DNA of 64,000 nucleotides from NCBI GenBank assembly GCA_903813345.2, contig CAIIXF020000006.1, positions 29,986,024 through 30,050,023 of the forward strand, in the 5' to 3' direction. The position numbers and the translations under genes are program-made. Of this stretch, positions 2,063-29,890 are shown one piece after another (position 1 is the first letter of the stretch; the number at the start of each line of letters is the position of its first letter). This DNA comes from Owenia fusiformis (lineage: Eukaryota > Annelida > Polychaeta > Sabellida > Oweniidae). Below the pieces are notes generated by a model. That model was not told the origin of the DNA. It saw only the letters and a program-made list of their open reading frames with translations, and did not search any database.

Positions 2063-2122
2063 TTGTTAAAATGCATTCTCGGTCCAAATTTATACAGAGT
2101 TTACCAAACTGCCGGTTCAAAT
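2054..2122 (+). CDS. ABHD16A: ABHD16A exon 1 (start codon)
   Basis: 23 codons, phase 0 at the end, donor GTAAGT. Starts MATLLKCILGPNLY, closely matching the vertebrate N-terminus (MA-LL-C-LGP-LY), so the start is secure. Confidence 0.92.
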
Positions 2123-5100
2123 GTAAGTAACATACTTGATGTTAATGCTACATTGTATATAAATGAAGTACGAACGTGATGTCAAAATTTCAAAATCATC
2201 GAAGCGATAATGACGAAGAAAAAGTGCATTTTGTAAAATAATTTGCAAAAAAATGCAAATAAAATTTCTTATCCCGTGCCAGGACTATAGTCCTGCAGTG
2301 AGAGCATTCTTTTGCCTGTACGATTACAACATGGGAGAATTTTCTACGCTTCTTACACTTAAGATACCTATTTCAATAGATTCCTTGGTATTTTAGCATT
2401 CTTTTCTTGTAGTTGAATCCACAATTGTCTGGGTTTATCGCCAGAACAAAGAAATTTTCGTTTTTAATCACAATATAGGCGTGTAATATTTAACTCATTT
2501 CAACCGTCAAATTCCTCTATTTTTGGTGGAACATCCGGGTCAGTCAAACGGGGAATCCCCTTATAAATCCAACCACCATCTTGGAAAGTGATGGAATATC
2601 TCTCGTTCTGCCGATATACCCAAACAATTGTGAATTCAACTACACGAAAAGAATGCTAAAATATCCAGGAATCAATTGAAGTAGGTATCTTAAGTGTAAG
2701 GGGCGTAGATAATTCTCCCAAGTTGTAATCGTACAGGCAAAAGAATGCTCTCAATGCAGGACTATAGTCCTGGCACGGGATAAAAAATTTCCATTGAATT
2801 GAAATGAATCATGAATGGAAGCAAATTTTAACTTGTGGAAAAATACTGGTACAGTGGGGACATAAAGAATTACAAAAGCTATGGAAATTACATGCTGTCG
2901 CTCACGTAATAAATTCTTACCTCAGTGTATTCAGTGCTCTATTTTCTCCGTCCTAGTAAGTCCAGGTATATTGCAATTCGTGTCCATAATGAGAAATAAG
3001 AACTTAAAAATTTGAAGTGAAATTCACATGTTTATGCCGACTCTTCAAATGTTGAGGTGATTTTGGAGCCCGATTACGCCGCAATGTGGATTGGCTCCCA
3101 GAATGCAACATGACACGTGTCAGCTTTCAAAATGCTGTTCTGCCATTTTGAAATCTGTCACGAGTAAATAACAGCGCTTGCATTAGGTTAGAAAATTTGT
3201 GAGTCCCAAGGACGCAATTTTTTTTTAAAAAGTGTGTCCTTTGAAAAAAAGTGTGTCCCCTATTTCTAGCCTGTTTTGAGGTATAACTTTATTTTAAAAG
3301 CATTTTTTACCAAAACACCTTTCAGTTTTTGATTTCTTGCCGCGAATTTAAAACGGAAGTAAACATTAAGTACGGACTGAATAAATGCATGTTCGTTCAT
3401 TCGACAATGAATACATTTTATTTCATGAATAACCTAATATTTGTTTCTGAATAGGAAAAACTGTGGCGTGTCATGGTTTCAAATCTAAAAATAAACAAAG
3501 TCAAAAAAATTCGAGAGAATCATGATTATTTGTAAATATTCAACATGTTGAGCCTTATTTACGATTCAAATAAAGGTGAGAGATCATAATTATTTGTTTT
3601 TGTTAGGTATCGTTGTAAACACATTGTAGTATTGACCTAAAAAAATTTTGCATCCAAAAAATGGAAATATTTCCAATTTTTGCGTCCTCCAAATTATTTT
3701 TGAGTCCTTAACATGTACGGGACGCCGTTAATGCAAGCCCTGAAATAAGGTTACTTGATGTTGCATTCTGGGAGTCAATCCTCCTTGGATCACAAACATG
3801 GCGATTCATGAAAACATTCATTCAATTTGGAAGGGATTTATCCATTATTTGCAGGTATGAAGCTTTGGATTCATTTATTGTGCTACTTAAAGTGATTGGG
3901 AATTATTTTTCTACCGCCTGGGAGAGTTTGAGACACAAAACTTAGAATTTAGCTCATTGTGACAACTTTTGAGGGTTGAGATTTATTTTTGTCTCCCACT
4001 TTAGATCATATTACTTTCTAGACATATTTAAGTATTAACACTGCAAGGCAATGGTATTGGCCTCTGATTGAATAAGTTTGTTGACCAGTCATACCAGATG
4101 CATTCCGGGGCAATGCAGACATCATCCACTTATGTTCCTTCGTTCATAAGTGAATGATGTCTCTTGGAGGATTCATCCTATGATGAACAGAACAGGAGCA
4201 ATAGCCTCTCAGTTGTTTGGAAAGGTTTGGAAAGTTTGATTGGAATTATTAAGGCTCAGTTGGAAAGTAACATTTTGGTAAAAAATTGCTATAGGCTGCA
4301 TATGTTATTTTCTGGTACAAAATTAAGTATGAAGGCATGTGTGTATTTCCTTGCTTTTTTCAGGAAAGTATCATTACAGTGTCTCCTTTTAGTAAACCTG
4401 GAAACAGGTCAATGGTAGCTCCTGTGTTGTCTAGAAACTTTGAAAGAAAATTTGGAAAAATACAAAGTGTGAAATATCAGAATTTCCTGGAGTTCCAATT
4501 AAACTCTTACCAGATATTCTAAAAGAAGACATTGTAATGATACATTCCTGAAAAAAGCAAGTAAATTAACACATGCCTTCATATTTTGTACCAGATATAG
4601 CAATGTGCAGGTATAGCAATTTTTTACCAAAATGTTATTTTCCAGCTGTACCTTAAAGGACCTTTAGCCTATATCCTCTACTACTTAGTCTATATCCAAT
4701 AGACTGAATTTCCTGAGGCACAATTAAATACTATAAAAAGAAACACAGCATACAGGCTTCAACACTCACATTTTTTGCCTGGTGCCAAAATAACTACCTG
4801 ACCAATTTTCAGGTAGTTATTTGCCTCTGTCAGGTAGTTGTATATAAAATGATGTTATGAAATTTCAAAAATAACATAAACCCAGCATATAATGTTAAGA
4901 TAGTGTTAATGTAAAATCGCCTGTTGTTTTTTAGGGACGTTTCAAATTTTCCATGTTAAATTAATGATTTCCATTGATTTTGCCTGTTGTTATTTTCTCT
5001 ATTCTAGTGAAACCCTGTGACCAAACTTAAGGGAGTGTACCTGTATATTGTTTCCAAACTTTTAGAGGGGAGTTTACCTTTTACAACTGTACAATCACAA

Positions 5101-8100
5101 AGAATTTTTGAAGACAAGGAATAATTTATATAAAATTACAAAACCCAATTCTATTTTTTTTTATTTAACTAACATTGCTCAACACAATGATTGACAGGTC
5201 TCTTACTAGAATAAGCAAACTCCTTGGCAGAGCTGTTATGCATTCTTTTCAAATTGGGATAATTGGAAAATTGGCGAAGATCTAATTTCCCGAGGCTTTC
5301 TGAAAAATTGACGAAGATATGAATTACCAATTTTTTGCTATGATATCACCTTATATACGAGACATTTTTAATAAAATATTTAAATAAATTGTATGTACAA
5401 GTTAATTGAGTCTCAACAAGTAGATTCATGTGGAATAGTATTGCTAGAATCCATTTTCAAATCATAAGAATAGGGGTTCATAAACAGTACACGTATTAAA
5501 GCTTAACTAAGACCTTTTGTAATTTTTAGTTAGTAACTTCAACTTCACAGGTAAAAAGGAGGGATGGAAGAATTCTGTATTGATGAAAAAGAAATGTTCT
5601 TTTTATTTCCAGGGCATGGTTTACACGCCAAATGGCTTGGAGAGTACATGTAACACTGTCATAAAATGGGTAGGTACCATTTAAAGGTATATTCCATCTG
5701 TTCATTAGATATGATTGTCTCATGTTTATTGATTCAATCTGGAAGGAACATCACTCTGTAAAGTCTATCTGTCAGCGCTAGGTCCCGGGTTCGATCCCAG
5801 GTTCAGGCACTTCGTTTGTTATATAAAGCACTTGAGGGTGTTTGACTGAGTTGTCCACACCTTAACAATACAAGTTCAGTGTCTGTAACAAATGGCAGGT
5901 AGTAACATTTTGCATGTTAATGCCTTGTTAAAAATTAAAACCTCACCCACCCTGTATATTTGTTTAAAACAAATATTTCAAGAAAACAATTTGTGATAAT
6001 TGAATCAATACTCTGGAAATTCTTATTCACCAGGACTATTTATTGATTAAGGTTTATTACTAAATCTTTGACAGATTGTCACAAAATTCTGTGTATTTTG
6101 GGAAGTTCAACCTAATTCCATCAAAATTTGCAAAATAGATGCTATTGAATGAAGCAAAATAAAAACGAATTAAAATCAGGTCTTATTCATCTATCTTACA
6201 GTCTATTTGCAGCTTTCTTTTGCCACACATCACAAAATCATTCTTTGATTTATCACTTGAAGAAATTCAGCTTGAGGAGATTTGGGAATTGATTTATTGG
6301 TTATCTTCAGACTTTTTGCCCAGTTGCATATTTATTGGTTCACATTTATTGCCTCGCAAGATTAAAAGCAATTTATACAGTCCAGTGGCCTCGCCTTGTA
6401 GAATATTTGGTCAATATTCTTATATCGCAGAATTTAATTCCGAAATATTCAATATACCATCAGACTGCTCAGCAGCAAGAGTAAAAGTCAGTTATAGCCA
6501 TTTTAGGGCATTTCCAAAAATGATGGACTTTGTTTTGGCTGCTATAAGGCATTTTTCGAAATATGGGAATTCATTAAGATATGGGATCTCTAAAAATAGA
6601 TTTTCGGGCAAAAGGGGGGAATTTTTTATGAAAAAATAAATAAATTCATTAGGATGATTTCAGCATATTTCCAAAAAAGGTCAATTTGTTAGAATTATTT
6701 TAGGGTAGTAATTGCCCAAAAAAGGAGAACTTGGTAAGGCCTTTTGAGGACTTCTCCCACGCCCAATTAGGTGACTCTTAACAATCGGCATAAACTCATA
6801 CATTCTCATAAATGCATTTAAAATTAAAATAAAAAATATGATTACATTTCAGATGAAGTTTGCTTGGTCACTATCGTATTGGACATCTCCAGTCTTACTG
6901 CCAATCATGTATCGACGTGGATTCTTCACAAGAGAGGGTGCCATCTATCTAATCGAGTATGCATCAATTGCGGGACTTGTTCTTTGTTTTTCGTACTGGC
7001 TTAGAGGTAAATAATAAATAGTCGTGAACATAAAATATGGAGATACTATAGAAGTATCTGATATTTGATATTTCAGTTTTAGAATGTTACCCCCACTACG
7101 TGTGCAATATTAAACAACTATATCCTTATGTACAGTGAGTCTAGTTATTTTCAAGGATTTATATGATAGTAACATTTTATGCCTATTTACATTTTACCTA
7201 AATGCTATATTTGCACTGGTGATCCACTCGATTACGCTTGCTACCGAAACGGTTCGTTTCGGTAACAAAATGTCCTTCGACGAGCGGATCACTTGTGATT
7301 TGAATCAAATTCTGTCTGCCTCCTTTGCTTTCTAAGAAACTTTCATTTTTCAAAATACATTTATTTCCATGTTTGTACAATAACATGTTTTACTATTCAG
7401 GTCTTGGGAGGTACAACAATCCAGATTATGTTGCCTTTGTAGCAATCCTTCACAATGCACAAGAGAACTTCACTTTGCAGAATAAAGTAAGTAATTCATT
7501 TTTATCCAGTTGACTCTTTTAGCAGTGTCACTCAAAGGATGTTTTCGTATTCAAACATGAGAAGCTGTATTGTCAATCAAAACACTCATGCATTAATTAT
7601 ATGATAGAGGTCATAAACAAATTTCTGGGAATCTGTTACAAAAATATGAAAACTCCAACCACTAAACAATCTCTAACAACCATCTTTCAAATTTTGAACC
7701 AACCCACCAAGCCCTTAAAGGATGCTAATTCTATGTTTATAAATAAATGTGATTAAAATCTAAATTGATACTCCATCTTCTATTATTTTGTATTATCAAT
7801 GGCTGCAAAGCTGTGTGTACTCTATTTGGAAATATAAATTCTTCACACTTTTTTCAGGCCTTGTTGAGTCGATATGACTTTGATTTCTTCGCTTGGCCAG
7901 TAGAATACAGCTGGGCTGAGGGGCAGAGAGGGTAAGTTACAGTTAAGATGAAGGGGCCAAAGGGGTGAGGGCATCTGGATGGAGGGCCAAAGGAGGTGAG
8001 GGCATCTGGATGGAGGGCTAAAGGAGGTGAGGGCATCTGGATGGAGGGCTAAAGGGGGTGGGGGCAACATGGTGGAGGGCCCAAGGGCACAGGGACAACT

Positions 8101-11100
8101 GTGTTGAGGGGCAAAGGGGGTGAGGGCAACTGGGTGGAGGGCCGAAGGGGTTGGGGGCAACTGGGTGGAGGGCCAAAGGGGTTGGGGACAACATGTTGGA
8201 GGGCCCAAGGGCACAGGGACAACTGTGTGGAGGGGCAAAGGGGGTGAGGGCAACTGGGTGGAGGGCCAAAAGGGGTGAGGACAATTGGGTGGAAGGCCAA
8301 AAGGGGTGAGGACAACTGGTTGGAGGGCCAAAGGGGGTGGGGGCAACTGGGTGGAAGGCCAAAAGGGGTGAGGACAACTGGGTGGAGGGCCAAAAGGGGT
8401 GAGGACAACTGGGTGGAAGGCCAAAAGGGGTGAGGACAACTGATTGGAGGGCTAAAGGGGGTGAGGACAACTGGGTGGAGGGCCAAAGGGGGTGAGGACA
8501 ACTGGGTTGAAGGCCAAAAGGGGTGAGGACAACTGGGTGGAAGGCCAAATGGGGATGAGGACAACTGGGTGGAATGCCAAAGGGGTGAGGACAACTGGGT
8601 GGAAGGCCAAAGGGGTGAGGACAACTGGGTGGAAGGCCAAAGGGGTGAGGTCAACTGGGTGGAAGGCAAAAGGGGTAAGGTCAACTGGGTGGAAGGCCAA
8701 AAGGGGTGAGGACAACTTGGTGGAAGGCCAAAGGGGTGAGGTCAACTGGGTGGAAGGCAAAAGGGGTGAGGTCAACTGGGTGGAAGGCCAAAGGGGTGAA
8801 GACAACTGGGTGGAAGGCCAAAGGGAATGAGGACAACTGGGTGGAAGGCTAAAGGGAATGAGGACAACTGTGTGGAAGGCCAAAGGGGATGAGGACAACT
8901 GGGTGGACTGTTAGAAGGGGTGAGGACCAAAGGATGGAGGAGTCATAGTGAGCTTGAAGTCACCTTGCCAAAATATCAAAGTTTTGTCTGAGAGTAATTA
9001 AATAAAGCATTAGATCACACCATCTCCATTAAAACTTATATGAAACAGCATGTAAAATTTCAAAAGTGAAACTCCACCTCAAGCTCCGACCTTGAAAATG
9101 GCTTAGCAGAAAAATTAAGACATTGCTAATTGACCTTACCTCTTTAAGTGTTTTCTTGTTGCAATTTTTTCAGAGATGGGAGCAAACCCAAGATCCAAGT
9201 GCCTAAAAGGACACGGTCTTTCGCAGATAGTTTCACAAGAATTCCATGTGACGTAATCAGGTGAGAAATGTGAATAAATCGTCAAAGCATGAAAATGATA
9301 ATAACAAATGGCAATATTTGAAAATCAACTAATCAAATCCCTATAATTCATATTTATTAAACCAATGTGAAAAACAACTATTTTTAAAATATTATGTACT
9401 TCACAAAATTAGAGATGAAAAAAATGAGAAATGGGTTCATACAGAATTCTGGCAATAGAGCAAGCCTAAAAAGTTTGATTTTTTCTAGTTATATAGGTGC
9501 CCATACATTTGGTAGAAGAATGGTGTATCCTGGTGCTACGGGTCTTATGAATGCATTAGTCAGTAAGTCATTTTACTTCTATGCACACGATTTGCACATA
9601 TTTGCTTGTTTTATAAGGGAATATTTGCAAGTACATTTCAATAGCACAGATGCAAGTAGGTAGTTACCAGTTTCACCACTAGGTGGCTCATTCGGGTCAG
9701 ATAGCATGGTGGGTATAGTGGAAAGTTCCCCTTAACTTAAATAACATCTGTTTTAGTGGTCCAATTTTCACATAACCCTTATGTATCTAATAGTTATCCA
9801 AATTAAAATATGTCCAGTAAAAGAAAATGTTATCTGTCCAATACAGAAAAGTTACTTTACTTGTGATTCTGTAACATGGGGATCTATGGGAATCCACCTG
9901 AAATAGAAGTCACATTTTCATATAAAATTAAATTTTCAAAGTTGAAAAACAATTTTCGAAACAATATATCTAGATGTACTTTAACATGTAAATTTCAAAT
10001 ATGGCATCACTTTTACTGGATTTTGAATATTAATTATGTAAATCAAGATTTTTCTACTCGCATCTAGTCTATTAGCATTGATGTATGGACTATTATCAGG
10101 TGTTGGTTTGTCATGGTTGTCATGGAAATAGATTTCTTTTATTTAACAACAATGTCCTGAAGAAAATATTGATATTCTGAATGATAAACCCAGAGGTTGT
10201 AGTGCGTTTCCTTACCTGGCAATTCACTCATACTGTTCCCATTACATCATGGAGCATTCAATTATTGTAACTTGACAGCCATACATCTAGTTTTTCTTGC
10301 ATGTGGGGCTCTAAAGAAATATTTTGATTTTGGAAAAAAATTAACCCCACATTATTGAAAAGGTAAGAGTTTTGGGTGTTAATTTGTAACAATAGAATGT
10401 TTTCCCGATGAACTTGAAACATCTGCTTATAACTTTCTTTTCTTCCTGTAGGTCCCATGTTGATGGAAGGACGCAAGAAACTGGTAGAAGAGGTAGGTCA
10501 CTTTCATTAAATCCTACTTCTATTTATCTTATATCTTATCTATTACACATTGGATGTTACCATGACTACTGCATAGTCATGCCATCTATACATTCAGTGT
10601 GTCAACGTATGTATATGTTGCTGACAAAATGTCTTATAGATGGTATCTCTAAAAATCTGAACTTAGGACTAAACTGTATTGTATAACCCAGAGATAAGAG
10701 ATAAGGACTAAATTGTAATTTTTATTCCAGAAACAAGGGTGTAAGGGCCTAAAATATATTGTATATTTCAGAGCCAGAAGTCTAAATTGCATTTTCAAGA
10801 GACAGGGGATCAGGACTAAAGTGTTCCATAGAGAGGGTTCAGGGTTAAAATATATTGTTGCATTGTATATTCCAGAGACAGGGGATTAGGACTAAAGTGT
10901 TCCATAGAGAGGGTTCAGGGTTAAAATATATTGTTGCATTGTATATTCCAGAGACAGGGGATTAGGACTAAAGTGTTCCATAGAGAGGGTTCAGGGTTAA
11001 AATATATTGTTGCATTGTATATTCCAGAGACAGGGGATTAGGACTAAAGTGTTCCACAGAGAGGGTTCAGGGTTAAAATATATTGTTGCATTGTATATTC

Positions 11101-14100
11101 CAGAGACAGGGGATTAGGACTAAAGTGTTCCATAGAGAGGGTTCAGGGTTAAAATATATTGTTGCATTGTATATTCCAGAGATGGGATTAGGACTAAAGT
11201 GTTCCATAGAGAGGGTTCAGGGTTAAAATATATTGTTGCATTGTATATTCCAGAGATGGGATTAGGACTAAAGTGTTCCATAGAGAGGGTTCAGGGTTAA
11301 AATATATTGTTGCATTGTATATTCCAGAGACAGGGGATTAGGACTAAAATGTTCCATAGAGAGGGTTCAGGGTTAAAATATATTGTTGCATTGTATATTC
11401 CAGAGATGGGATTAGGACTAAAGTGTTCCATAGAGAGGGTTCAGGGTTAAAATATATTGTTGCATTGTATATTCCAGAGACAGGGGATTAGGACTAAAGT
11501 GTTCCATAGAGAGGGTTCCGGGTTAAAATATATTGTTGCATTGTATATTCCAGAGACAGGGGATTAGGACTAAAGTGTTCCATAGAGAGGGTTCAGGGTT
11601 AAAATATATTGTTGCATTGTATATTCCAGAGACAGGGGATTAGGACTAAAGTGTTCCATAGAGAGGGTTCAGGGTTAAAATATATTGTTGCATTGTATAT
11701 TCCAGAGACAGGGGATTGGGACTAAAGTAAGTGTATTATACTGTATATTCCATAGAGAGGGTTCAGGGTTAAAATATATTGTTGCATTGTATATTCCAGA
11801 GACTGGGGATTAGGACTAAAGTGCATTATACTGTGTATCTCATACTTGAGTGGGTTTGGGGTAGATATCACCCGGGAATATATATCATATCTGAGGAGTG
11901 GGCAGGATATATTGTATATGTCCCGCTCTAGGCCAAATGCGGGCAGATATAATATATCCATCCCGCTCCCGGGAATTTTTTCAAAAGTTTAAAAAAGTTT
12001 AAAAATTTAAAAAATTTAAATTTCAGAAGTTTAAAATTTTTCAAAAAGTTTAAATGTTACAATTCTATTGTATTGAACTGAATGAATATTATGAAAATGT
12101 TAAATATAAATTGTGCTTTTAAAGTATAGGCCTATCTTGTCATTTGAAAAAGGTGGTAAAGGTTATATCTACCCCAAACCCACTCAAGTATGAGATACAC
12201 CAGTTATGTACGGTTGGTTTTGGATACAGGGTTTATCCCGCGGGAAATATGTGTATCTCCCTCGGTCCTAGCGGTCCCTCTCCCTCGGTCCCTGCGGTCC
12301 CTCGTGAGATACACATATTTCCCTTAGGATAAACCCTGTATCCAAAACCTCCCAGTACATAACCCTTATATATTCCATAGAGGAGGGTTCAGGGTTAAAA
12401 TATATTGTTGCATTGTATATTTCAGAGGCAGGGGATCAGGACTAAACTCTTGTCAGAAGACCTAAATGAAATTGATACAATGTTTGTAGACAGGAGACAT
12501 ACCTCATCAATCAATGGACAGACACTGGTTAGTACAATCAATAAATATTTCATTTAGGTAATCATCTTATTGAATAGAATTTGTAACTATAAAGTTTGGA
12601 GGGATATACAGAATGCCTCCACTTGGGTATCTGTCTTGCAGGGTGTGGCATAATTATCTGAGCCTATTGATCAAAATTGAATTATGGATAAGTTGTCATA
12701 TAGTTTTCTTATACATATTGAAACAAGTAGCTGTATCAAATGGTAGGTTGTGACATGTATGTTGTTATTATAATTGCAATATGATCATTTTTGTAGGTAG
12801 TTACAAGTGAAGGCAATGCAGGGTTCTATGAGATAGGGTGTGCATGTACTCCCCTAGAAGCAGGTTATAGTGTGCTAGGGTGGAACCACCCTGGCTTCGC
12901 AGGGAGCACCGTAAGTAATTGGATCATTTCAATTTGAATTTTATCAGAATATAGTATCAATTTGTCAAACCAAATGAAAATGATTGAAATACATACAAGT
13001 AAAATGAAAAGCTCCATTTATAAATTTCAAATTGTAGCAAAAATCAAAACCAGAAAGTTCACATACCCTAGCATAAATAAAGAATCAAGAAGGCTTGATG
13101 TACATTATATTTATTATTAATGCAGGGGTTATATAGCATATACTCATTTCACTGGGGATCCAGCTAGTGATTGGAAGACTGACTCGTGTACTCGAGTTTT
13201 ACTCATATTTGTCCTAAAAATCAGTTGATTGAGTTGAAAACTTGAACTCACGATTTGAAATTTTTACCAAAAAAAAATTTTTCACTCGTTTTCACCTTAC
13301 CTTGACTCGCGATTCCTCTCTCCTATTCACAATTTCCATGCTTATAGTTGTAATGTTCTGCTTAATCTGTATATACAACTTAACTTTCTATTTAATGCCA
13401 TGTGCGGAAGACAAACATACTTGGATTTTATTCTGCGTTCGTTATTTTTATTCGAACTCCTATGCAGTGTCTCGGTATAGACACTGCGGCGGGCAGATTA
13501 TGGAATCCCCAAAATTTGGGGAAGATAGTCCCCCTTTTTGTCACAGATGTACTTGTTTTTCACACAACTTATAAAATATATGTTCTTTTATGTTCACCAA
13601 TAATTATTTTGTCAAAATATTCCCAAATCAATGAAATATAAGAGGAAATCACCGCGGAAGGAATTCTGAGTAAAAGTTATGTTGATAAAAGTTTACCGCA
13701 CGTGTTGTTTATTAGTTAATACGCGCAATTCAACCAATGAAATTGTCTAAACTTTACAATCACGCGACCTGAGCATGGGACTAGAGCCAATCACATCAGT
13801 TGTTTATTACGATGTTACCATGCTTACGGTGAGATACCTGCCCGCCGCAGTGATATATCACTGCACGGGAGTATGATTTTTATTATGCAAAAGTTTCATT
13901 TCCGGTTTGATGCATTCTGGGAATATCCAACAGCTGGAAATTTTAATAAAAAAAAGTATAGAGGCACTTGAAAGACTTGATCAAATTGATGAATTCTGCC
14001 GCTACTTGGGAAACTGAAACCGGAAGTAACTCAACTAAGTCAAATCGCGAATATAATCGTGGTTTTTCATGGCCCACTCAAGTGGAGATTTTCAGGCGAG

Positions 14101-17100
14101 TCCGACCACTAGATCCAGCCCCCCCCCCCCCTTTTTTGGGCCCAGAAATTTTTTTTAGTGCCCCAAATATTTTGTAGGGCCTCAAAAAATAGGCCTTTTG
14201 AGTGTAATTTGGCCTTTGAGGCAAAATTATCAAAAAATGGGCATTAATTTTTCAAAAGGTGCTCAACATTATTTTAGGGGACCAAATTGTTTTTCTGACT
14301 TTTTGCCCCCCCCCCCCCCTTGTTAGATTCTGGATCCGCCAGTGCGTATACTTATAAAGCAATTAGGAAAGTGATGACAGGTTACCAATGTACAATGTAA
14401 TGCATACACAACATTATCATTAATTGTAACTACATGTATATACATCCATATGGGTGTCAGTTGCGTGTAAACTAAACATGATAATTGATAAATGAAACTA
14501 CTATGTAATTGGAATCAGTACCCATATCAGTCATGTAGTTTGATATTTTATACAATGATCCCTATGATTAGGTGTATTTATTTACTATTTTGATCATGCA
14601 CTATTTCAAAAATTATATCATTGTTATATCAACCTGCATTGGCTGTATTTCCTTTCATATCCATCCTGGGCACAAAACAAAGTAATTACGAGAATTGAAA
14701 GACAACACTAAATACACAATATTTCTGAATATCTAACAATATTATCTTTCTGACATGAAAAATGCATATTTCAAAACGCATTTGTATTTGAGGTTTGATC
14801 ATGTAACATGGGATTTGCCACCTTGTGAAATGAATGGAAACCCCATGTTTTGTTGCCTTAATTACTTCTTTAATGGAAATAGGACTTGGAAAATCGTCCT
14901 ACTTACATGGAGGTTTCCATTTACAGAGAACTATTTCAACTATTAAATATATTTGTACAGGCATTAAGCAAAGCAAAGTACATGTATTCATCTTAAACTC
15001 ATACAATTTTTTTATGAATCACAATCTTCTACATTAAACGACTTTTAATCTTTCTAAAGCATGCTTTACAATCAAGCACAAAATGTTTGTGTCCAACTGT
15101 ATACAATATTGGATTAATGGCATTGTTAAGGTGAAGGAAACGGCGGAGTAGACTCTGCAATGGCGATTCAAGTTCTGTCTTTTTGTGAAACAATTCTTCA
15201 TTGGTCAATTCTCCTATTGTTATAACCCAATATGGAATCCACGAAAGTAGAAATATCGCAGTTACTAGAAATTATATTTTTGTAGCTTTCAAACCACTGT
15301 TTTTAATATTGGGTGTTGTATATGTGGTAACTTTATTTTCAGCAGTTCGTGGGTCCTCAATTTGTCTCGTTTTGGACCTTTCATTTTCTGCAGGAATGTT
15401 TCTTGTATTTATTTGGTCAAAATTTACATCAACCATCTGTATATGATCATGTGCCTGGAGTTGGATTTGTGTGTTGTGTTCATGTAAAGGGTTTAAACTT
15501 CCAGCAAGTGCTGGTAAAGGGTTATTTGCCTCTTCAATCATTGGTAAAGGGTTTTGTATCTCGCCATGTGGCGTTAAAGGATTGTTTGTTGCTTCAATCA
15601 TTGGTAAAGGGTTTTGTATCTCGCCATGTGGCGTTAAAGGATTGTTTGTTGCTTCAATCATTGGTAAAGGGTTTTGTATCTCGCCATGTGGCGTTAAAGG
15701 ATTGTTTGTCGCTTCAATCATTGGTAAAAGGTTTTGTATCTCGCCATGTGGCGTTAAAGGATTGTTTGTCGCTTCAATCATTGGTAAAGGGTTTTGTATC
15801 TCGCCATGTGGCGTTAAAGGATTGTTTGTCGCTTCAGTCATTGGTAAAGGGTTAGTTGTCCCTTCAATCATTGGTAAAGGGTTTTGTTTCTTGTCATGTG
15901 GTGTTAAAGGGTTGTTTGTCGCTTCAATCATTGGTAAAGGGTTACGTGTCCCTTCAATCATTGGTAAAGGGTTTTGTATCTTGTCATGTGGCGTTAAAGG
16001 GTTGTTTGTTGCTTCAATCATTGGTAAAGGGTTTTGTATCTCGCCATGTGGTGTTAAAGGATTGTTTGTCGCTTCAATCATTGGTAAAGGGTTTTTTATC
16101 TCGCCATGTGGCATTAAAGGATTGTTTGTCGCTTCAATCATTGGTAAAGGGTTTTGTATCTTGTCATGTGGCGTTAAAGGGTTGTTTGTCGCTTCAATCA
16201 TTGGTAAAGGGTTTTGTATCTTGTCATGTGGCGTTAAATGGTTGTTTGTTGCTTCAATCATTGGTAAAGGGTTTTGTATCTCGTCATGTGGCGTTAAATG
16301 GTTGTTTGTTGCTTCAATCATTGGTAAAGGGTTTTGTATCTCGCCATGTGGCATTAAAGGGTTGTTTGTCGCTTCAATCATTGGTAAAGGGTTACTTGTC
16401 CCTTCAATCATTGGTAAAGGGTTTTGTATCTTGTCATGTGGCGTTAAAGGGTTGTTTGTTGCTACAATCATTGGTAAAGGGTTTTGCATCTTGTCATGTG
16501 GCGTTAAAGGGTTGTTTGTTGCTTCAATCATTGGTAAAGGGTTTTGTATCTCGCCATGTGGCGTTAAAGGGTTGTTTGTCGCTTCAATCATTGGTAAAGG
16601 GTTACTTGTCCCTTCAATCATTGGTAAAGGGTTTTGTGTCTCGCAATGTGCAGTTAAAAGGTTGTTTGTCGCTTCAATCATTGGTAAAGGGTTTTGTGTC
16701 TCGCAATGTGCAGTTAAAAGGTTACTTGTCCCTTCAATCATTGGTAAAGGGTTTTGTGTCTCACATTGTGCTGTTAAAGGGTTATGTGTCCCATCAAGTG
16801 TTAGTAAAGTTTTGGTTGAGTTTTTTATCCCATCAATTGCTGTTGAATTGGTTTTCATCACATCATATGTTTTAATAGACATTTCTGCCTTAGATTGTGT
16901 TGATGACATTTCACTATTCCCAAGATGAACTGATAGCTCTTGGTCAATAGCACCTGTGAATTTAAGCTTTGGGTTGCTATCGACAACTTCATCACGTGGC
17001 TCTTCATCACGATGCGGTGTCTGATCCTTTGTTGTAAATTTTGTAAGCGATCTTTTTACTGGATTTTTATTTCTGATTTTTGAGGAATTTCCAATTCGAC

Positions 17101-20100
17101 TTGAACTCAAATAGGCAGTTCTTGCTATTTTCCCATACAAAAACATGATGATTATAAAAGTGATGAAAACTACTATCATTAAGCATAAGTTGTAAATAGA
17201 AACAAGCACATTGTTTTTGTATTTCATTTGTGTGCTGCATGTTCGCCCATGAAATTGCACATCACCAATAACAGTAGCAGTAGTGTTTATACCATAAATC
17301 TCTATTACTGGTAAACATATGACAGTTCCTACAAAGGTGGATACCGAAATCAAAATAATCATTCTTTTCTTTCGTATTCTAACCGACATCAGAGGACGAC
17401 ACACAGCGTAGTATCTGTCTATAGCTATAGACAGCAGCAGAAATATCTGCACAGCAAAACTGGTGTATTTTAGAAATTTGAATATTTTACAAATTACACC
17501 AATCTGGTCGTACCTGTTGATAAAGGTGCCTATGATGAAGGGATGGACTAGAAGACAACTAAAAAAGTCTATAGCAGCAAGAGTCTGACTATAGCAATTG
17601 GCGGTTGAGTAGTACACAATCAGCACAAGCAAGTTTCCGAGAATCCCAATTATCATCATTAGAAACATGAATATTAGTGAAATTAAATTCTTCTCTGCGT
17701 ATATTGTATTATATTTAGAAATAACAGTTTCGTTATATCCTGACAACTCCATATTTATGTCTCTCCAACTTCTATTTTACTTGATTGCGTCACCCTTAAT
17801 TGTTTGATCAGTCCTATATTTTGTTATAGCTGTCGTATCACTTAAGATAGTATTGAAAACGTCCTGTGCTGCGTGTGTTTTTCACTGGAATAATAGTCAA
17901 TATATTAAAGAGGAACTATTATTTAAGATAACTATAAACTGTCAATTCATATTTTACTTGTCTTTCTTTAAGATATGGTTTATAGACATGGCAAGCAATT
18001 TTAATAAATGCAACATTTTTCATTGAAAAAAAAGTTCTTTTCCAATATTTAAAAATTTGAATAATGAAATCTAAAGCTTCTTCAAATTAAAGGTAGAACT
18101 CTGAATGAAAATACAGGGTGTCCAATAAATATGGTAAAAGATATTGTAACTTTCTTAATATTGCATGTCTTAGCAAGACTTCAGGAAATGGGCAAGAATG
18201 GGTTTGAAAGTGTTTCTAGAGAGTGGGTGAATAGGCATAAGAAGTGTATAGCTAGAGATGGACATTATGTTGAATAGCTTATTTTCATAGCAATGAGACT
18301 TTAGGACTGTTTTTATTATTTTATATTGTATTTGAGGTAGTAATAGACCTGGGAGTATGAATAAAGCTATCAGAAAGAATGAATATGTTTTGGAAAGTTG
18401 TGACGTAAACAAACTTGACCTACCTTCTTGTTGTTTCGGTTGCTATAGCAACCACAACTCTGGCCAATCAAATAGAAGATGCTTTAAATTCACAGAAAAA
18501 AGGTAAAAAGGTTTGGGCTACAAACTCAAAAAAATTTCATCAAGATTGGTGCAATATTAAGAAAGTTACAATATCTTTCATACCTTATTTATTTTTTCAG
18601 AATTGAACCATTTGGATAACTGCATAATGTAATGGATACTCTTGAATGGCTGTTAATCAACATTCATGTCATATTTGAAAAATGGCATCCAATGGCCTTC
18701 AGGACTGTCAATAGATGGCATAAAATTCAGTGGGTTTAGTAGCATACTTTAACATGTAAAAATTGCTCTAAAAATCTCCCAAGATAGATTTTATTGAAAA
18801 TGTCAAAAACCTTATGACTTTAAATCTTAAAACATGTTTGTAAATAATAATGAAGGAAAATTTGATATTCATTATAATATATAACATATAAATGCAGTGA
18901 ATTTGAAGTTTTAAAACAGCAATATTTACACGCAAACCAATGGGGCAGATGTGAACAAGAACCTAGTAGTTAACTGCCATCTGTACGAGTCCTTGCTCCC
19001 ATTCAAATGGCTGCCATTTTCAGTAAAAAAAATCTAAAAATTTTGCTTAAACGAAAGTATTGATTGTTTGATTCCTGCACATTTTGAAATATATTTGTTT
19101 CTGTAACAGATTGTTTTTAAATCTGACACTTCCTATTTAATTAGGTTATGGTTTGAATCTTATTAAAGTGTTCATGTGGGGCTTGAAAATTAAAGATTAA
19201 GACCAATAAATAGTTGCAAAGCTTTTACTGTATGATTATTATAGTCATACTGCTTATCTTAATTTGTTTTTTATTTCTGAAGTGTTAATAATAGAAAATA
19301 AATGTAATTCATTTGAATAACTTTAACATACCTTATTGTGAACCCTTCCTCCAATATGAGAATGTATGAATGTCTAATAACTTGTTTCCTGCATTTTGTA
19401 TTAGATACGTGTAAACTGACACCTACATGTATGTTACAGAGTTATGTCATAAGTCAATAACATTATACTAGACTGACAATTTACGTGAACACATTTAAGC
19501 GACCTGGTGTTCAAATTGAGGCTGAAATGAGAATTGTTGAAAACTGTATTAGACAAATATTTTGGAATAATTGCCGATTTGGAAATCTTGAAAAACACAT
19601 TTTTGTAATTTTCTCTTGTGACTTATGAAAGAAATCTTGTTCAATCTACCTGATGTGTAAAACAAAATTTAGATCCCACAAGTAATAGTTACCATCACCA
19701 TACTATAATTCCCATCAATGGTCTCCAGTACTGTCAATTAATGATGAAGAATTCAATAGGTTTAATTGTAAACATTTACATGTAAAATTAATTCAAAATT
19801 CTCCAAAACAAAAATTATCTATAACACAATAATATTGAATCTTTGGACATATAAGCCATGAACAATGCAATTTTTTCAAAACATTCCAATTTTTTTTAAT
19901 TTTTAAAACAATATTTACACATAAACCAAGACACATGTTTGATGAAAAACCCAATTGCATTTTGCGAATTGCCATCTCTTTTTTAATCTGCATGAGTCCT
20001 TAATTAAGGCCATTGATATTTTCCCAGTAAGTTCTATTATTATCATTTTGTGAATATGTTATTGCTCTTCTCAGATCATATTCTTTTTGTAACAAAAATC

Positions 20101-23100
20101 TTTGTATTAATATCATTGATAATTTTAGCAAATAGATATAATTCCCTTTTTTTGTACATCAAACTCAACTACAAAGACATCATTCTCGACTTAAAATAAA
20201 TCATGGGGAACTTATAAAAGAAAAGGCTTTTCATTATCCAACAGAATCATGTTCAAGTATATAGGGATATTGAAATTTGGCCATATGTCATTACTCTCCC
20301 CAGAAAAGCTCTTTTATTTTACTGCCTCAATATAATACTAAATACTATCTCCAATGATACTGTTGGTTTTACAAAATAGGTCTATTCTTGATGATTGTTT
20401 GCATGTTTTTTTATATACTACAGTTTCTGTAGATAGGACCTTCTGTGATATCTGAAACTTTTTCTTATAATGGTGAATACGAGATATCTGATAATTTAAC
20501 ACAAATCATGATTAATATATATATATATTATATAAGTGGTAAACTGAGAAAATAAATGCAGTGCGTGTTAAAATGTAATACCGTACCTCAGTATTTTACC
20601 CCCCTATCACACCAAACTAGATTTTACCCGTTCTTGCCAGTCCTACGAAAACGTCGTAAAACGGGCTCAATCTGGCTGTGGTCGGGGAATATGTCTAAAA
20701 TAATTAGCTACTTCGTTCATAAACAGTCTTCAATACGTCCATCTCATTCGCAGTTCGTTCAGGTCGCACCCCGTCGGTGTGCAACGTCGTATAACAAGTC
20801 CCTTAGTCTAGAAGGTCATCATGACCTGATTACAAAACGGTATGGTCGCCATCGAATTTTGAATCGATTCAAAATTCTAAATCACATTCCCTGTCCGGGA
20901 AAGTCCATGAAGTTCGTAAACAGACCGTAGAACGTTGTATCTACGTTCATTCCATTCGCACGCAGTTTAAAACCAGTTTTGAAGAACGCAGTGGCAACTT
21001 GCCTGGTGTGATAGCTATATTTTTGCTAACTCGTTGATTAATAAGTTCTTAATCAGTTTTAACCCGTTTGCAATTAGTTCTACCTCATTCTCAATACATC
21101 CTCAGACAGTTCAACTCGTTGTAAAAACGTCCCTAGTAGGATTGAAGTACGACGGTTCCGTTCGTAGAACATCCAGCTCGTCGTTAGTAGGTTGTCACTT
21201 GTTCTAATTGTAGAACGTGACGACCAAGAGAACATTTTGAGCATGTTCTAAGTTCCAGAGGACCTACCCGTTCGAGTATGTTCGATGAAGTTTGTAAATA
21301 GACCCCAAAAGGTTCTAAGTACGTTCAGTCTGTTCGTAGACAGTTGAAGCCCATTTTCGAGAACGTAGTGAGAACTAGTTTGGTGTGATAGTAGGGTTAA
21401 CAGGTACACCAAATATTTTAACAGGTACACTAAATGGGTTTCCATTGTTGAAGTAGCAATGGTACATTATGTTATATGATAGACATCTCGTAATATACTA
21501 GGATAGGTCATCATCTTTTTGAAACTGTTCATGTCTTTTAACGGATAAACTATAAATCATGTCTTGAACTGTGACTTTCAAAAGAGTAATTTTTCCATGC
21601 TGTAATGACCATTATATTTTTAAACTATGCATTTGTTTGTGCTGATGTACCGTTTTTTCATTTTATTTATTATAAACAAATTACATAATGTTAGGACACC
21701 AATTTGATTATATACATGAAAAATATTTGTTTCAAGTTGATACATTTCGGCAACTTTCAGCAACCAATTGCCAGATTGCCATTATAGGTTGGCATGATGC
21801 CATATTTTCACAATAGATTGGCATGTTGCCAGATTGGCATTATATGATTGTGTTTTGCCATATTGGCACAATAGATTGGCATGTTGCCAGATTGGCATTA
21901 TATGATTGTGTTTTGCCATATTGGCACAATAGATAGGCATGATGCCAGATTGGCATTATATGTTGATATGTTGCCATATTGGCACAATAGATTGGCATGT
22001 TGCCAGATTGGCATTATATGATGGTATTTTGCCATATTGGCACAATAGATTGGCATGTTGCCAGATTGGCATTATATGATGGTATTTTGCCATATTGGCA
22101 CAATAGATTGGCATTATATGTTGATATGTTGCCAGGCTGGCATAATAGATTGACTGCTTCTTTGTCATTACAGTTTTGAGCATTCATATAGAATATGTAA
22201 AAGCAGGAAGTATTTGTTTACATTAAATAAGTTCATAGTCTGGTCATATTAAATCCATTTATTATTAATGTTCATTGTCACAGACTTTATTACAATTTTT
22301 TGTTTTGACAATTTAAATTAAATATTCATATAAATATAAATTTATATATATAAATAAAAAATTCAAAATTTTGAATTTTAAATTTTGAATTTTTTATTTG
22401 AAAAATTGTCTAACAGAACTTGTGTCTTTAATGTACTCTTGTGTCTTTAATGTACTGGTCCAAAGTGAGGTGCCAGGGAAAGTTCCTAGCTATAGCTTCC
22501 AACCACAATTGTCCAAGGAATCCTATTGGTTCACATAAAAACTGTTATGATACTTGCAGACAAGAACCATAACATACCTTTAAGATTTTTCAAGCACCCC
22601 ATCTGCTTGATAAGGTCAAGATTATATGTAAGTCAATATTATAATCACTGTAACTCAAGGTTCTATAATCATCTATTATTTTGAGACATTGATAAGAATA
22701 TGTTTGGTGTTGTTGTTCATATGTAATTATACATATACTTATTGATATAAATTGAAGTAATGATGACTCCACGGAGAGTTATTACATCAAAATTACAAGA
22801 GACTCAATTTCACAATGACTATTATATAATTGTTTAATAAGACATCTTAGAGAAGAAAATTAATGTACATACAGTATATATTTCAACTTATGTAATATAA
22901 ATCATCTCAATAACATAATGAAATGTGACTATGTCGTTTCACAGACTATATGAATACCACCTGATCTTTCATAACATGTGACCTGAGTTTGACTGATTAA
23001 AAAAAGGCAGGCTTGGCAGTTATATGATACATATTGCATGAATATCCTTTCTCGAACATCCTTTCTCGCTCAAGGCTTTGGAAATGAAAATATTACTTAG

Positions 23101-26100
23101 ACAGGCATATAATCGTGTAATCCAATAAGGGAATGTTGAACAATTTATCAAGAACATCTTCGAATGTTTTGTGAACAAAATTTTGCTTCTCTAAGATATC
23201 TTGACATTTTTTAATCAAGATTTTTGCGTTTCAACTGTAATGGTCCAGCAATACTATTTGAAACCTTAAAGCCACCACAAGATATGAAATGGGGACACCT
23301 AATGTGGTACAGTGCTGCCCAGATACACAAAGGTCAATAATAACAAGTTGGGTAGTCATATCTGAAGGGAGGAAAAGGGGAATCTATGAGTGGCAAACAA
23401 ATAATGGCTGATTAAATGTCCATCCAATATACAATTATGTATAATACATGTATACAATACAGTCCAAGAAGTATAGTGGTATAACAATAATTATACAAAA
23501 AATAATAGTAATATTTCTGGTAATCACTTAAAAGTAACACTGAAGACACTGGATTGAAATTAAGTCCGCATGGTCAGACAACCACATCACCAACCCTTTA
23601 CATATATAATAAAAATGATTTTAGCAAGACAACGATACAGTCGTCTCACAAAACATTTTATGTTGCATAAAAAAATATTTATATTATTAGTTTTTAAAGA
23701 ATATATTTTTTCATCTGTGAAGGAAGCAGAGATTTGCATGAAAATGTCTTAATTAATAAATAAATATAATACTCAGAGATGAAATGTTTTTGAATGATAA
23801 ACATTTATCAAACATTTATTTCACCGATTATTTCATGATGAAATTGCATGATAAAATCTCATTGATATTTTCAGGGTGTTCCCCTCCCAGACTCAGAGCA
23901 GAATGCAGTAGATGTAGTGATGCAGTTTGCCATTAATAAGTTAGGCTTCCAACCAGACCAAATAGTGCTGTTTGCCTGGAGTATAGGGGGCTACACAGCA
24001 ACCTGGGCAGCTATGAATTACCCAGATGTAAAGGCAGTCGTAAGTGAAAAATAGAATATCATAAAAGAGTCTATTCTGCATTAAGAATTTTGTGTCCAAT
24101 AGAAAACTGTATACGTTTTTATCTGCCTAGTTGTTTCTTTTTCTTTCTGTTTGTTTATTTGGTCAGTTGGTTGGTCAGTCAGACGGTCTGTGATCGGTTA
24201 CTTTTTCTAATATTTTTCATCAGCTCATAAGAGACTGTAGATTAGAACATATGAACTTTAGCTAAATCTTACTTTTGATATGTAGCTATTCCTGGTCATC
24301 TTGCACACTTTCTACACACTGGTTCATGATCACTACTAAAACACCCTCTTTTGACCATAGAATATTTGGAAAGAAGTTTGGAGAGAAGCATTTTTCTAAA
24401 GCAATGTTATTATTCTCAGCTGATTAGTTAGATGGCATACTAGCCGCATCAATGATAGGCAATGTTTTCAAAAATGGGATGGACATGTCCCCTTTTTATC
24501 GGATATGTTATGATTTTGATTCATGCGCCAATAGATATCGAATTGATTTTTTAATGTTATTATTAAACATTTAGTACACTAAGTGTAGGATAAACATATT
24601 AACTGTACATATCCATTGAATATATGTATTACTGTCCCCTGTAAATTTCTACTGTACATTATACATATTTTCTCTACATTTTGAATGTATTTGTTTCAGG
24701 TCTTGGATGCAACATTTGATGACTTAACACCACTTGCTGTAGCAAAGATGCCTGAAAGCTGGCGTAAGATATTATTAGATATTACCATAAGTATTATTAT
24801 TATAGAAATGCATTTAAATAAGTTTGTTTATGGGTTTTGCCTCACATGGTGACCCCATGAAATTGTACGCTCATCCATCTGTCCATCTGTCTGTCTATAA
24901 AAATGTTCTGAGAAATCAAACATGCCATTTGTCTGAACTAATGCACATATCCATTGAATGGTCCATGCTCGTAATTTAAACCAATTGTCCTAGCTCCTAT
25001 ACTACATTTGCCTGGTTTTGGAGAAATCAGCTTTTTCACTACTGATAACAATAAAACCTGCCAAAGTGGAAACCTAATATAAGAGGTTCATTTAACATTA
25101 AGTCAGTTGGTCTTAGGACTCTAAAAATTGTTCCACTAATGCCTGGGTCACATTTGCTCCGATCCATCTGCCGGCGCCTGGCCGATTGAGTGTTTTGTTC
25201 AATATCGTATTCAATTCTCGAAATCGTTGTTCCCTCTTCAAAAGAGGAGACGCTAAAATCTTTCCTTATAAGGTCAAAATATTTCCCATGATGCAGTTCG
25301 CGGAGGAACAAATTTATACTTCCTTGTTTTCCCTCATAGGTTTAACATGGGGATTTTCACACCTATTTTTCAAACGATATATTCGTTCATATTCCCGTAC
25401 AAGAGTACAGAAAAAATTATTAGAAATGATTGATCTCTTATTAGTCTTAATATAACAGCTATTTTTTTCATTGTATTGATTCATAGCGTGGTGAAAACGA
25501 TGATTGAAAAGTGAGAAAATATTCCGGAAGAGAAGGTCACGTGATCAGTTGACTAGTCACCATTTTGGAGAAGACAATTCCATTCGACTTTCAATACTTT
25601 CCTGCCAATCTTACCGCACTACAAACTGCAACATCGATGCAACAACTGAATAAAAGTATTCATCTTCAAATTACATTATAGAGTTACGTTGAAAACCCAC
25701 AAACAACTGAGCAGTAGACCAAAGAAGACGTATCGCTATTATCTAGGTCAATCTGTTCAGTGGTCCGAAAGCAAATCTATAATACTCGTTTTCGAATTTG
25801 TTGGTCATTGTACAATCTTTTATTGATTAAACTCGGTATACTGACTATTAAAGCAATGACAACGAAGAATACTTCCGATGGTGTCATTGTTTTATTTAGC
25901 GTGCGGGTGTAAAAACAAAATTACGTAATTAGTTTGATTTAGAACTTTCGGGTCACGCAAATAGCTACTCGAAATGCATAGTGGGAAAATATTGACCAAT
26001 CAAATGTTGTCCTTTTTGATTGCTTTTTCAGTACATATTTGCGAACGTTTTGGGTAATATTTCTATATTTTTCATGAAAAAAATTATTAGCCCAGGAGAC

Positions 26101-28682: not shown

Positions 28683-29890
28683 TTAGTATGACACACCCCG
28701 AATTACTCTCTTGTGTTGTCTGTTACATGCTTTACATGCTAACAAAGACCAATAGGCTCGACCAATCTTCTTTTGAAAAAAAGCATACAGAATCGGGTGG
28801 AGAAAACTTGCACAATAGGCCAGCCATTTTAGAATTTTGATAAGGTATGCCATGAATATAGTCTGGCAGTCCTCACAGCGTCCGTATATTATGATACCAA
28901 CAGATATAGGGGTCCATGTTAATAGCGATAAGATAAGAACTTTCCGTAAGAAAACAATTGTTTGGTACTCCCATAGAAGTTTTTTCTTACGTTTTTGGAG
29001 TTTATGGACCTCCTTAGCCGTTGGTTGGTGTTCTTGACAATTCCCTCCATTGGTGATAGGTGTCTCCACTATGTTGTCCCTAAGCAACAAGGTGCATGAT
29101 GGGGATGGGTCTCCTGTTCGAAGATGGTTGGCTAGACCTGTTGGATTGGTGTCATTTTCTGGAGTGTTCATTGTCTCCATTGGTATAGTGCTGTAGGTTT
29201 CATGTGAATCTGTATTACCATCATGTGGATCGGAAAGAGAAATGGCATTTTCAGCATTAACAAAGTTCTCATATCGTTGGTTGCCTTGGTTACATTCATC
29301 CTCCATATGTTCCTCAATATCGTTAAAATCACTCTCAGCTCCACTCATTGATGCATCATCACTGACTTCATTTTGATCAAAATCAGCCGCCATATTGGAT
29401 TTACCATTAGTTGATCCCTCATTTATCGCATTATAACTCCGATCAGTGGCATCATCCAAAATGGCATCATGGATCATATATCGATAAATGTCATTATTCC
29501 CATTGACATCATTCTGCATGTTCTTGACCTCTTTACTACTGAGAAAATGGAACAGCACGGCAAAGAAACACGGGATGAAGAACGATAGCAAGATTCCAAG
29601 AATTGAAAAATTGCCATCTGGTTCGAGGCAAACATTTAACATGAGTTGACTTTCCCGGGCTTGATGACTTACGATGAATTCAGTAAAACTCTGAATAAAG
29701 GCCACTAGCCATGGAAGGATCATCCTGGTGCACGTGGACAACACGCTTGCTCTATGACGTGCTCGCAAGGGATCTTTCAGACGGAGAAATATATCCATGT
29801 TAACAAACGCCATATGGAGAAATGTGCAGTTACAGAAGAAGAAGTCGACAGATATCCAGATATTGCAGGAAACATAGGGGTGGTAATGAC
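28683..29890 (-). CDS. GPCR exon 2: TM3-TM7 and tail
   Basis: Acceptor TTTTTTATTGCAG ends at 29,891. Starts GHYHPYVSCNIWISVDFFF (extracellular loop 1 and TM3). The third loop is rich in Asn, Asp and Glu (about residues 485-665). Ends KRVIRGVSY and TAA at 28,685-28,683. The open frame extends upstream to 29,927 through intron sequence. Confidence 0.88.

Follow-up and report, generated by a model that had tools for sequence, protein, structure and literature searches.

Intron 8 of the ABHD16A gene of the annelid Owenia fusiformis carries a tandem array whose units repeat the 3' end of the intron itself, its acceptor site and the beginning of exon 9. The gene lies in a 64,000-nucleotide stretch of contig CAIIXF020000006.1 (positions 29,986,024 to 30,050,023 of the forward strand; hereafter the window, whose own numbering is used below). 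We consider it probable that the array is a 'mirage', a product of mostly neutral tandem duplications, tolerated since splicing takes the exon-proximal copy. The region comprises the following features:

10452-10492, plus strand: exon 8, part of the joined reading frame, with its donor at 10493.
10665-10811, plus strand: elementary units of 33-40 nt that are older and have diverged; the sites at 10731 and 10772 resemble strong acceptors, and the one at 10800 is damaged.
10812-11828, plus strand: core minisatellite in which sub-units of 29 nt alternate with sub-units of 47 nt (in some cases 45 nt), with 13 decoy acceptors at 10876-11800.
11833-12200, no strand assigned: inverted-repeat element of 368 bp, with 40-bp terminal inverted repeats that are 98% complementary, inserted between the array and the terminal copy.
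12216-12349, no strand assigned: second foldback element, with 44-bp arms that are 93% complementary.
12370-12446 (start approximate), plus strand: terminal, authentic copy, made of the intron end, the acceptor CAG at 12423-12425 and positions +1 to +21 of exon 9.
12426-12527, plus strand: exon 9, 102 nt, phase 0, RQGIRTKLLSEDLNEIDTMFVDRRHTSSINGQTL.

In each 47-nt sub-unit the intron end and the CAG are followed by positions +1 to +12 of exon 9, and exon positions +13 to +21 are completed by AGGACTAAA, which follows each 47-nt sub-unit. Exon 9 from +1 to +21 is identical to copy 10800 at 20 of 21 positions, a score reached by none of 300 dinucleotide shuffles; no match to the array was found for positions +25 to +102 (score reached by 171 of 300 shuffles). 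The terminal copy aligns to the reference copy with 93% identity over 69 nt (12383-12451), and the match ends at +21. These results bear out two claims of a preliminary description of this DNA, namely that the units hold the real acceptor with the start of the exon and that the last copy runs directly into exon 9. In a control comparison, ten other located exons had acceptor regions that scored 12-23 against the array, versus 51 for exon 9 (0/200 shuffles); the best of the ten, at 9174 (score 23), was equalled by 10 of 200 shuffles.

Tandem Repeats Finder (TRF) delineated 12.5 copies of a 76-bp unit (10786-11728, 97% matches), and a repeat finder added copies at spacings of 76, 74 and 94 bp, followed by a gap of 626 bp to the terminal copy. 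This last distance, from copy 11800 to the authentic site at 12426, is interrupted by the two foldback elements. The 76-bp unit initially proposed corresponds to the TRF period, but it proves to be a composite of 29-nt and 47-nt sub-units when divided at AGGxCTAAA/AGGGTTAAA, a motif that recurs, and shorter versions of 74 bp, lacking 2 nt, account for three of the 13 core copies. Its two halves have only a 12/14 match in common (2/300 shuffles). Similarly, the array does occupy the interval first given for it (10683-12446), but it starts at about 10665 and approximately 520 bp of the interval (about 11833-12350) are foldback elements. When the older units were compared with the terminal unit in four sub-stretches, the scores were reached by 0, 12, 0 and 0 of 500 shuffles, the two most upstream units resting on matches of only 10 and 12 nt.

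The array thus displays tandem repeats that span an intron-exon boundary, units that carry a splice signal, a homogenised core and diverged edges, as in mirages. A DNA search of the genome with the intron-8 unit, in which very common words were skipped and only the best candidates scored, placed all 15 matches at the ABHD16A locus; among these candidates the unit was not seen elsewhere, contrary to what would be expected of a dispersed satellite or of a transposon-borne repeat. The 368-bp element is a predicted inverted-repeat transposon family: 40 of 747 candidate genome places were scored, with 95-100% identity, its own copy included.

The start of exon 9 at 12426 is supported by the joined frame and by the GT-AG introns. 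A frame of 341 aa without stop codon was joined from 11 located exons (6853-26271), all introns between them being GT-AG. This join matched Pfam ABHD16_N (E=3.1e-25) and also gave alpha/beta-hydrolase matches; no family was returned when exon 9 by itself or short exon joins were scanned against Pfam. The first exon is at 2054-2122, and the numbering of exon 9 presumes one exon (exon 2) within 2122-6853, whose position was not located. A truncated gene, suggested by the absence of the C-terminal exons from the window, was ruled out, as these exons were found on the same strand just beyond it (C6:30050974-30053845); the intron after exon 13 spans ~38.7 kb, assuming that no exon was missed. A search of the 498-Mb, 525-contig genome with the 341-aa protein yielded only four matches outside the gene, all with E>4, and the ABHD16_N profile gave only three matches elsewhere, all below the cut-off (E 0.04 to 3.8). 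ABHD16A looks like an intact, single-copy gene, given the joined frame with its domain, the C-terminal exons past the window and the weakness of the matches elsewhere. No ABHD16 relative was found in PDB by phmmer at E 0.001, or in the prokaryote contigs scanned.

We scored the putative splice sites using an acceptor weight matrix trained on 14 other ABHD16A acceptors, with which left-out real sites score 2.0 to 12.8. The real acceptor of exon 9 scores 9.0, versus 9.2-9.7 for the 13 core decoys and 9.9 and 15.1 for two older copies; the acceptor of copy 10800 is damaged (1.2), and only 1.7% of 767 other AGs score at least 8. The preliminary description had counted more than a dozen decoys ahead of the real acceptor, and this figure holds, with 13 core and two older sites, all above 9.0. 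Each of these 15 strong decoys would lead to a stop codon within 3-52 codons if read on without further splicing. In the interior of intron 8 the best donor is at 11727 (7.3; the next scores 4.9, and the real ABHD16A donors 2.1-11.3), which defines one further candidate feature:

11706-11726, plus strand: possible in-frame microexon of 21 nt (RQGIGTK), a prediction from the one copy that has both an acceptor and a donor (at 11727).

The same gene harbours a second array at a boundary, of the opposite type:

7858-7931, plus strand: exon 5, in the joined frame, whose last 25 nt (7907-7931) with the donor align as the first copy of the intron-5 array.
7955-8907, plus strand: donor-type array of intron 5, with 31 copies of a 31-bp unit (TRF), many of which carry a stretch resembling the end of exon 5 followed by GTGAGG or GTAAGG.

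The intron-5 minisatellite runs on into the end of exon 5, so that it covers 7907-8907 overall, and in self-BLAST the sequence from 7907 on aligns with the array at ~83%. The end of exon 5 together with its donor scored above all 1,000 dinucleotide shuffles against the array, and none of ten other ABHD16A donors stood out in the same comparison. Among the copies that score at least 4, the intron-5 donors reach 4.2-5.0, weaker than the real donor (11.0). All seven matches of a genome search with the intron-5 unit fell at the ABHD16A locus. In self-BLAST analyses of the 11 located exons, boundary copies were found at exons 5 and 9 only, the remaining nine exons having none.

Other repeats and open frames occur in the ABHD16A introns. 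A 29/58-bp minisatellite in intron 10 (21768-22114) touches no located exon. On its minus strand, the same intron contains an open frame of 834 aa (15272-17776) that matches 7tm_1 (rhodopsin type; E 3.1e-26) and includes a 60/30-bp minisatellite as a long coding repeat, and a 414-aa open frame on the minus strand of the 38.7-kb intron 13 (28683-29927) is receptor-like by eye.

To find out how common boundary copies are in this genome, we collected 82 exon loci by Pfam family (30 helicase, 28 myosin and 24 TCP-1) and performed strand-aware self-matching of each exon frame. Of the 237 matches obtained in the searches for these families, 227 are on contigs C1-C12. The 82 loci are partly non-independent, several coming from one gene, and L035 looks like a duplicate of L036; L014 and L023, both within very long open frames, are perhaps not ordinary genes. 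The exon frame had a self-match in the same locus in 8 of 82 cases, and boundary-spanning copies were identified in four loci (L062, L075, L080 and L085), i.e., in none of the helicase, one of the myosin and three of the TCP-1 loci. L080, a CCT8-like locus, has ~9 copies of 83-89 bp that include the acceptor and 41 exon nt, and the CCT2-like L085 has ~4 copies of 96 bp, all of which stay in frame. The myosin locus L062 has two copies of 94 bp. L075, which we take to be CCT1-like, is of the donor type, with two copies of 154 bp. The flank of L085 additionally harbours a donor-type 105-bp array (2902-3153 of the reverse complement) cut by the end of the locus. At the acceptors, the decoys again score at least as high as the real site: eight decoys at 2.6 or 5.8 versus 2.6 for the real acceptor in L080, three at 7.7 versus 7.7 in L085, and one at 9.4 versus 8.7 in L062. 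At the donors, the L075 copy (3.4) is weaker than the real site (4.7), and both donors seen in the L085 flank score equally (9.8).

Several candidates were discarded. The self-matches of L014 (25 nt, 84%) and L091 (15 nt) were taken as chance, and L047 was dropped since its array begins ~20 nt beyond the exon end, as read by eye. L081 is not boundary-spanning: a 21-nt exact second copy of its intron end (E=1.6e-5) stops before the exon. The two L081 copies are located at 1383-1403 and 32-52 of the reverse complement, the extra one ~1.35 kb upstream of the real intron end. In the same genome, twelve consecutive matches to one myosin-head stretch (profile positions ~18-84) on the minus strand of C9:37986009-37994334 are probably a set of alternative exons. 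The genome also gave three clustered matches above the cut-off to Pfam Eryth_link_C, the family of the annelid erythrocruorin linker, which indicate an annelid.

As a rough yardstick, the share of sequence occupied by TRF arrays is 7.8% in the flanks and 1.6% in the matched exon stretches, bearing in mind that TRF alone did not mark the ABHD16A exon ends. Arrays span four of at most 164 boundaries, with no sign of boundary enrichment, as would be expected of a chance origin combined with partial removal by selection.

The copied exon parts of L080 and L085 are conserved in the CCT theta and CCT beta chains, respectively, of solved structures, some of which are presumably from yeast, and the exon is therefore the source of the copies at these two loci. 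At ABHD16A, the sequence at the edges of the array is informative. The authentic site and copy 10772 have T at position -5, where all 13 core copies have C; at +12, exon 9 and copy 10800 have C, and the 10 full-length core copies all have T. These edge states fit, without proving it, copying from the exon and subsequent homogenisation of the core. In addition, GIRTK in the copied part of exon 9 aligns with GRRAK of human ABHD16A. Identical short stretches are found at the outer ends of the arrays in L080 (CTCCCA) and L085 (CAACAAATC), which suggest duplication at microhomology. The duplication itself is legible in the sequence, which also supports its direction.

In the scenario that we favour, a tandem duplication would have chanced to straddle the boundary, taking in the 3' end of intron 8 with its acceptor and the initial 21 nt of exon 9. 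Slippage or unequal exchange would then have multiplied the copies, which lie on the intron side. Exon 8 would be spliced to the last, exon-proximal copy, exon definition presumably pairing the donor of exon 9 with the acceptor closest to it. Copies further upstream would remain silent, and their stray use would introduce a stop codon in the message, with decay of the mis-spliced products. Other boundaries of the genome have been hit by the same process, donors and acceptors alike. That splicing uses the last copy, that the array is neutral and that mis-spliced messages decay is what we infer.

Some observations fit this scenario less well. At exon position +3, the G of the authentic copy is present in no array copy, copy 10800 and the core having A, and copy 10731 carries the core state (C) at -5. 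The exon-to-intron direction at ABHD16A rests on the alignment to one human sequence and the edge-state pattern. The shared stretches at the breakpoints of L075 and L062 are short or less clear, and the exon-5 part alone gives a borderline match to the intron-5 array, with 18 of 1,000 shuffles reaching its score. That splicing takes the last copy is an assumption based on conservation of the reading frame. Finally, exon definition would not fully solve the problem of adjacent decoys, because the exon resulting from use of the next decoy would be of normal length in both L080 and L085.

The array might instead be regulatory, its acceptor copies competing with the real site such that copy number would tune the amount of productive ABHD16A message via nonsense-mediated decay. 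The decoy scores, which match or top that of the real site, and the stop codons reached by all 15 decoys within 52 codons if read on are in line with this view, as is the correlation between the length of a donor-containing variable-number tandem repeat (VNTR) of human ABCA7 and exon 19 skipping (PMC5954066). Nevertheless, unrelated genes carry similar arrays, and amphioxus mirages are reported to leave regular splicing undisturbed (PMC3087553, PMC3902484), making a regulatory role unlikely in our opinion. Alternatively, the array might supply a small extra exon, as the 11706-11726 copy would add RQGIGTK in frame; its donor (7.3) is within the range of the real ones, and 21 nt preserve the frame. 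This is a single copy predicted from the letters, and microexons of ~21 nt usually need help to be recognised, so we regard this possibility as distinctly improbable.

Sequence identity alone is symmetric, and a pre-existing intronic repeat might have overwritten, or become, the start of exon 9; the exon state at +3, which no array copy shares, speaks for this view. Nonetheless, the intron-8 unit was found at the ABHD16A locus only among the best candidates scored, the exon states at -5 and +12 are kept by edge copies and not by the core, GIRTK has its presumed counterpart in the human protein, and the exon is clearly the source in the CCT8-like and CCT2-like loci; we thus hold this reverse direction to be very improbable. 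It is harder still to believe in an assembly artefact. Tandem arrays misassemble easily, and the exact copy numbers may be wrong, but the copies have private differences, including the 74-bp versions, the 94-bp spacing and the inserted transposon, and other loci contain similar arrays. Neutral duplication across the boundary remains our preferred explanation.

The suggestion that no such case had been described does not stand. In amphioxus, arrays of this type have been called mirages: two reports describe repeats of the 3' intron end and the 5' part of exon 2 in BflGb6, with 3-6 units (PMC3087553), and further cases in PGBD5, Adh and TnC (PMC3902484). Like the ABHD16A arrays, those of Adh3, BflGb6/BflGb9, TnC and PGBD5 are minisatellite-like tandem copies across an intron-exon boundary, with the splice site inside many copies, at both 3' and 5' boundaries, and with core copies homogenised but not those at the cluster edges. 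They differ in that they belong to cephalochordates rather than an annelid, and BflGb6 has 3-6 units compared with the 15 strong decoys of ABHD16A intron 8. ABHD16A also differs from the amphioxus mirages, as portrayed there, in bearing both an acceptor-type and a donor-type array. In human ABCA7, the unit of the intron 18 VNTR is 25 bp long and opens with the GT of the exon 18 donor (PMC5954066). It is comparable to the intron-5 array in that a donor is repeated beside the real exon, but it concerns a donor only and starts at the GT, with no exonic part described in the available text. The effect of its length on splicing was measured, whereas the ABHD16A arrays, that of intron 5 included, are known here from the sequence of one assembly alone. 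Intron gain by tandem genomic duplication, in the potato RdRp gene and in Drosophila, likewise reportedly involves duplicated sequence with splice signals; in those cases an exon acquires an intron that did not exist before, whereas the ABHD16A intron is old and has been extended by copies of its own end. Among the matches listed from the open-licence literature, which include an earthworm paper (PMC12783039), no title or beginning of an abstract mentioned boundary tandem repeats or mirages in an annelid.

What is new is the recurrence of mirages in a second, distant lineage, the annelids, and in several genes of one genome. This widens the known range of the structure, so far mostly one chordate lineage, and suggests that splice sites are copied quite generally by tandem duplications that cross exon boundaries. 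It is an evenly balanced question whether mirages are a recurrent feature of minisatellite-rich animal genomes, affecting a few per cent of exon boundaries here, essential genes included. If so, these loci would form a natural series of near-identical splice sites, in which a single used site is accompanied by 1, 3, 8 or 15 decoys. The choice among equal splice sites is usually studied with made constructs; the sites of this genomic series are nearly the same in local sequence and differ mainly in position. Such a series could allow the spliceosome's preference among equivalent sites to be measured. It could also show how new introns or exon extensions begin, the CCT2-like locus being one that remains in frame throughout its copies.

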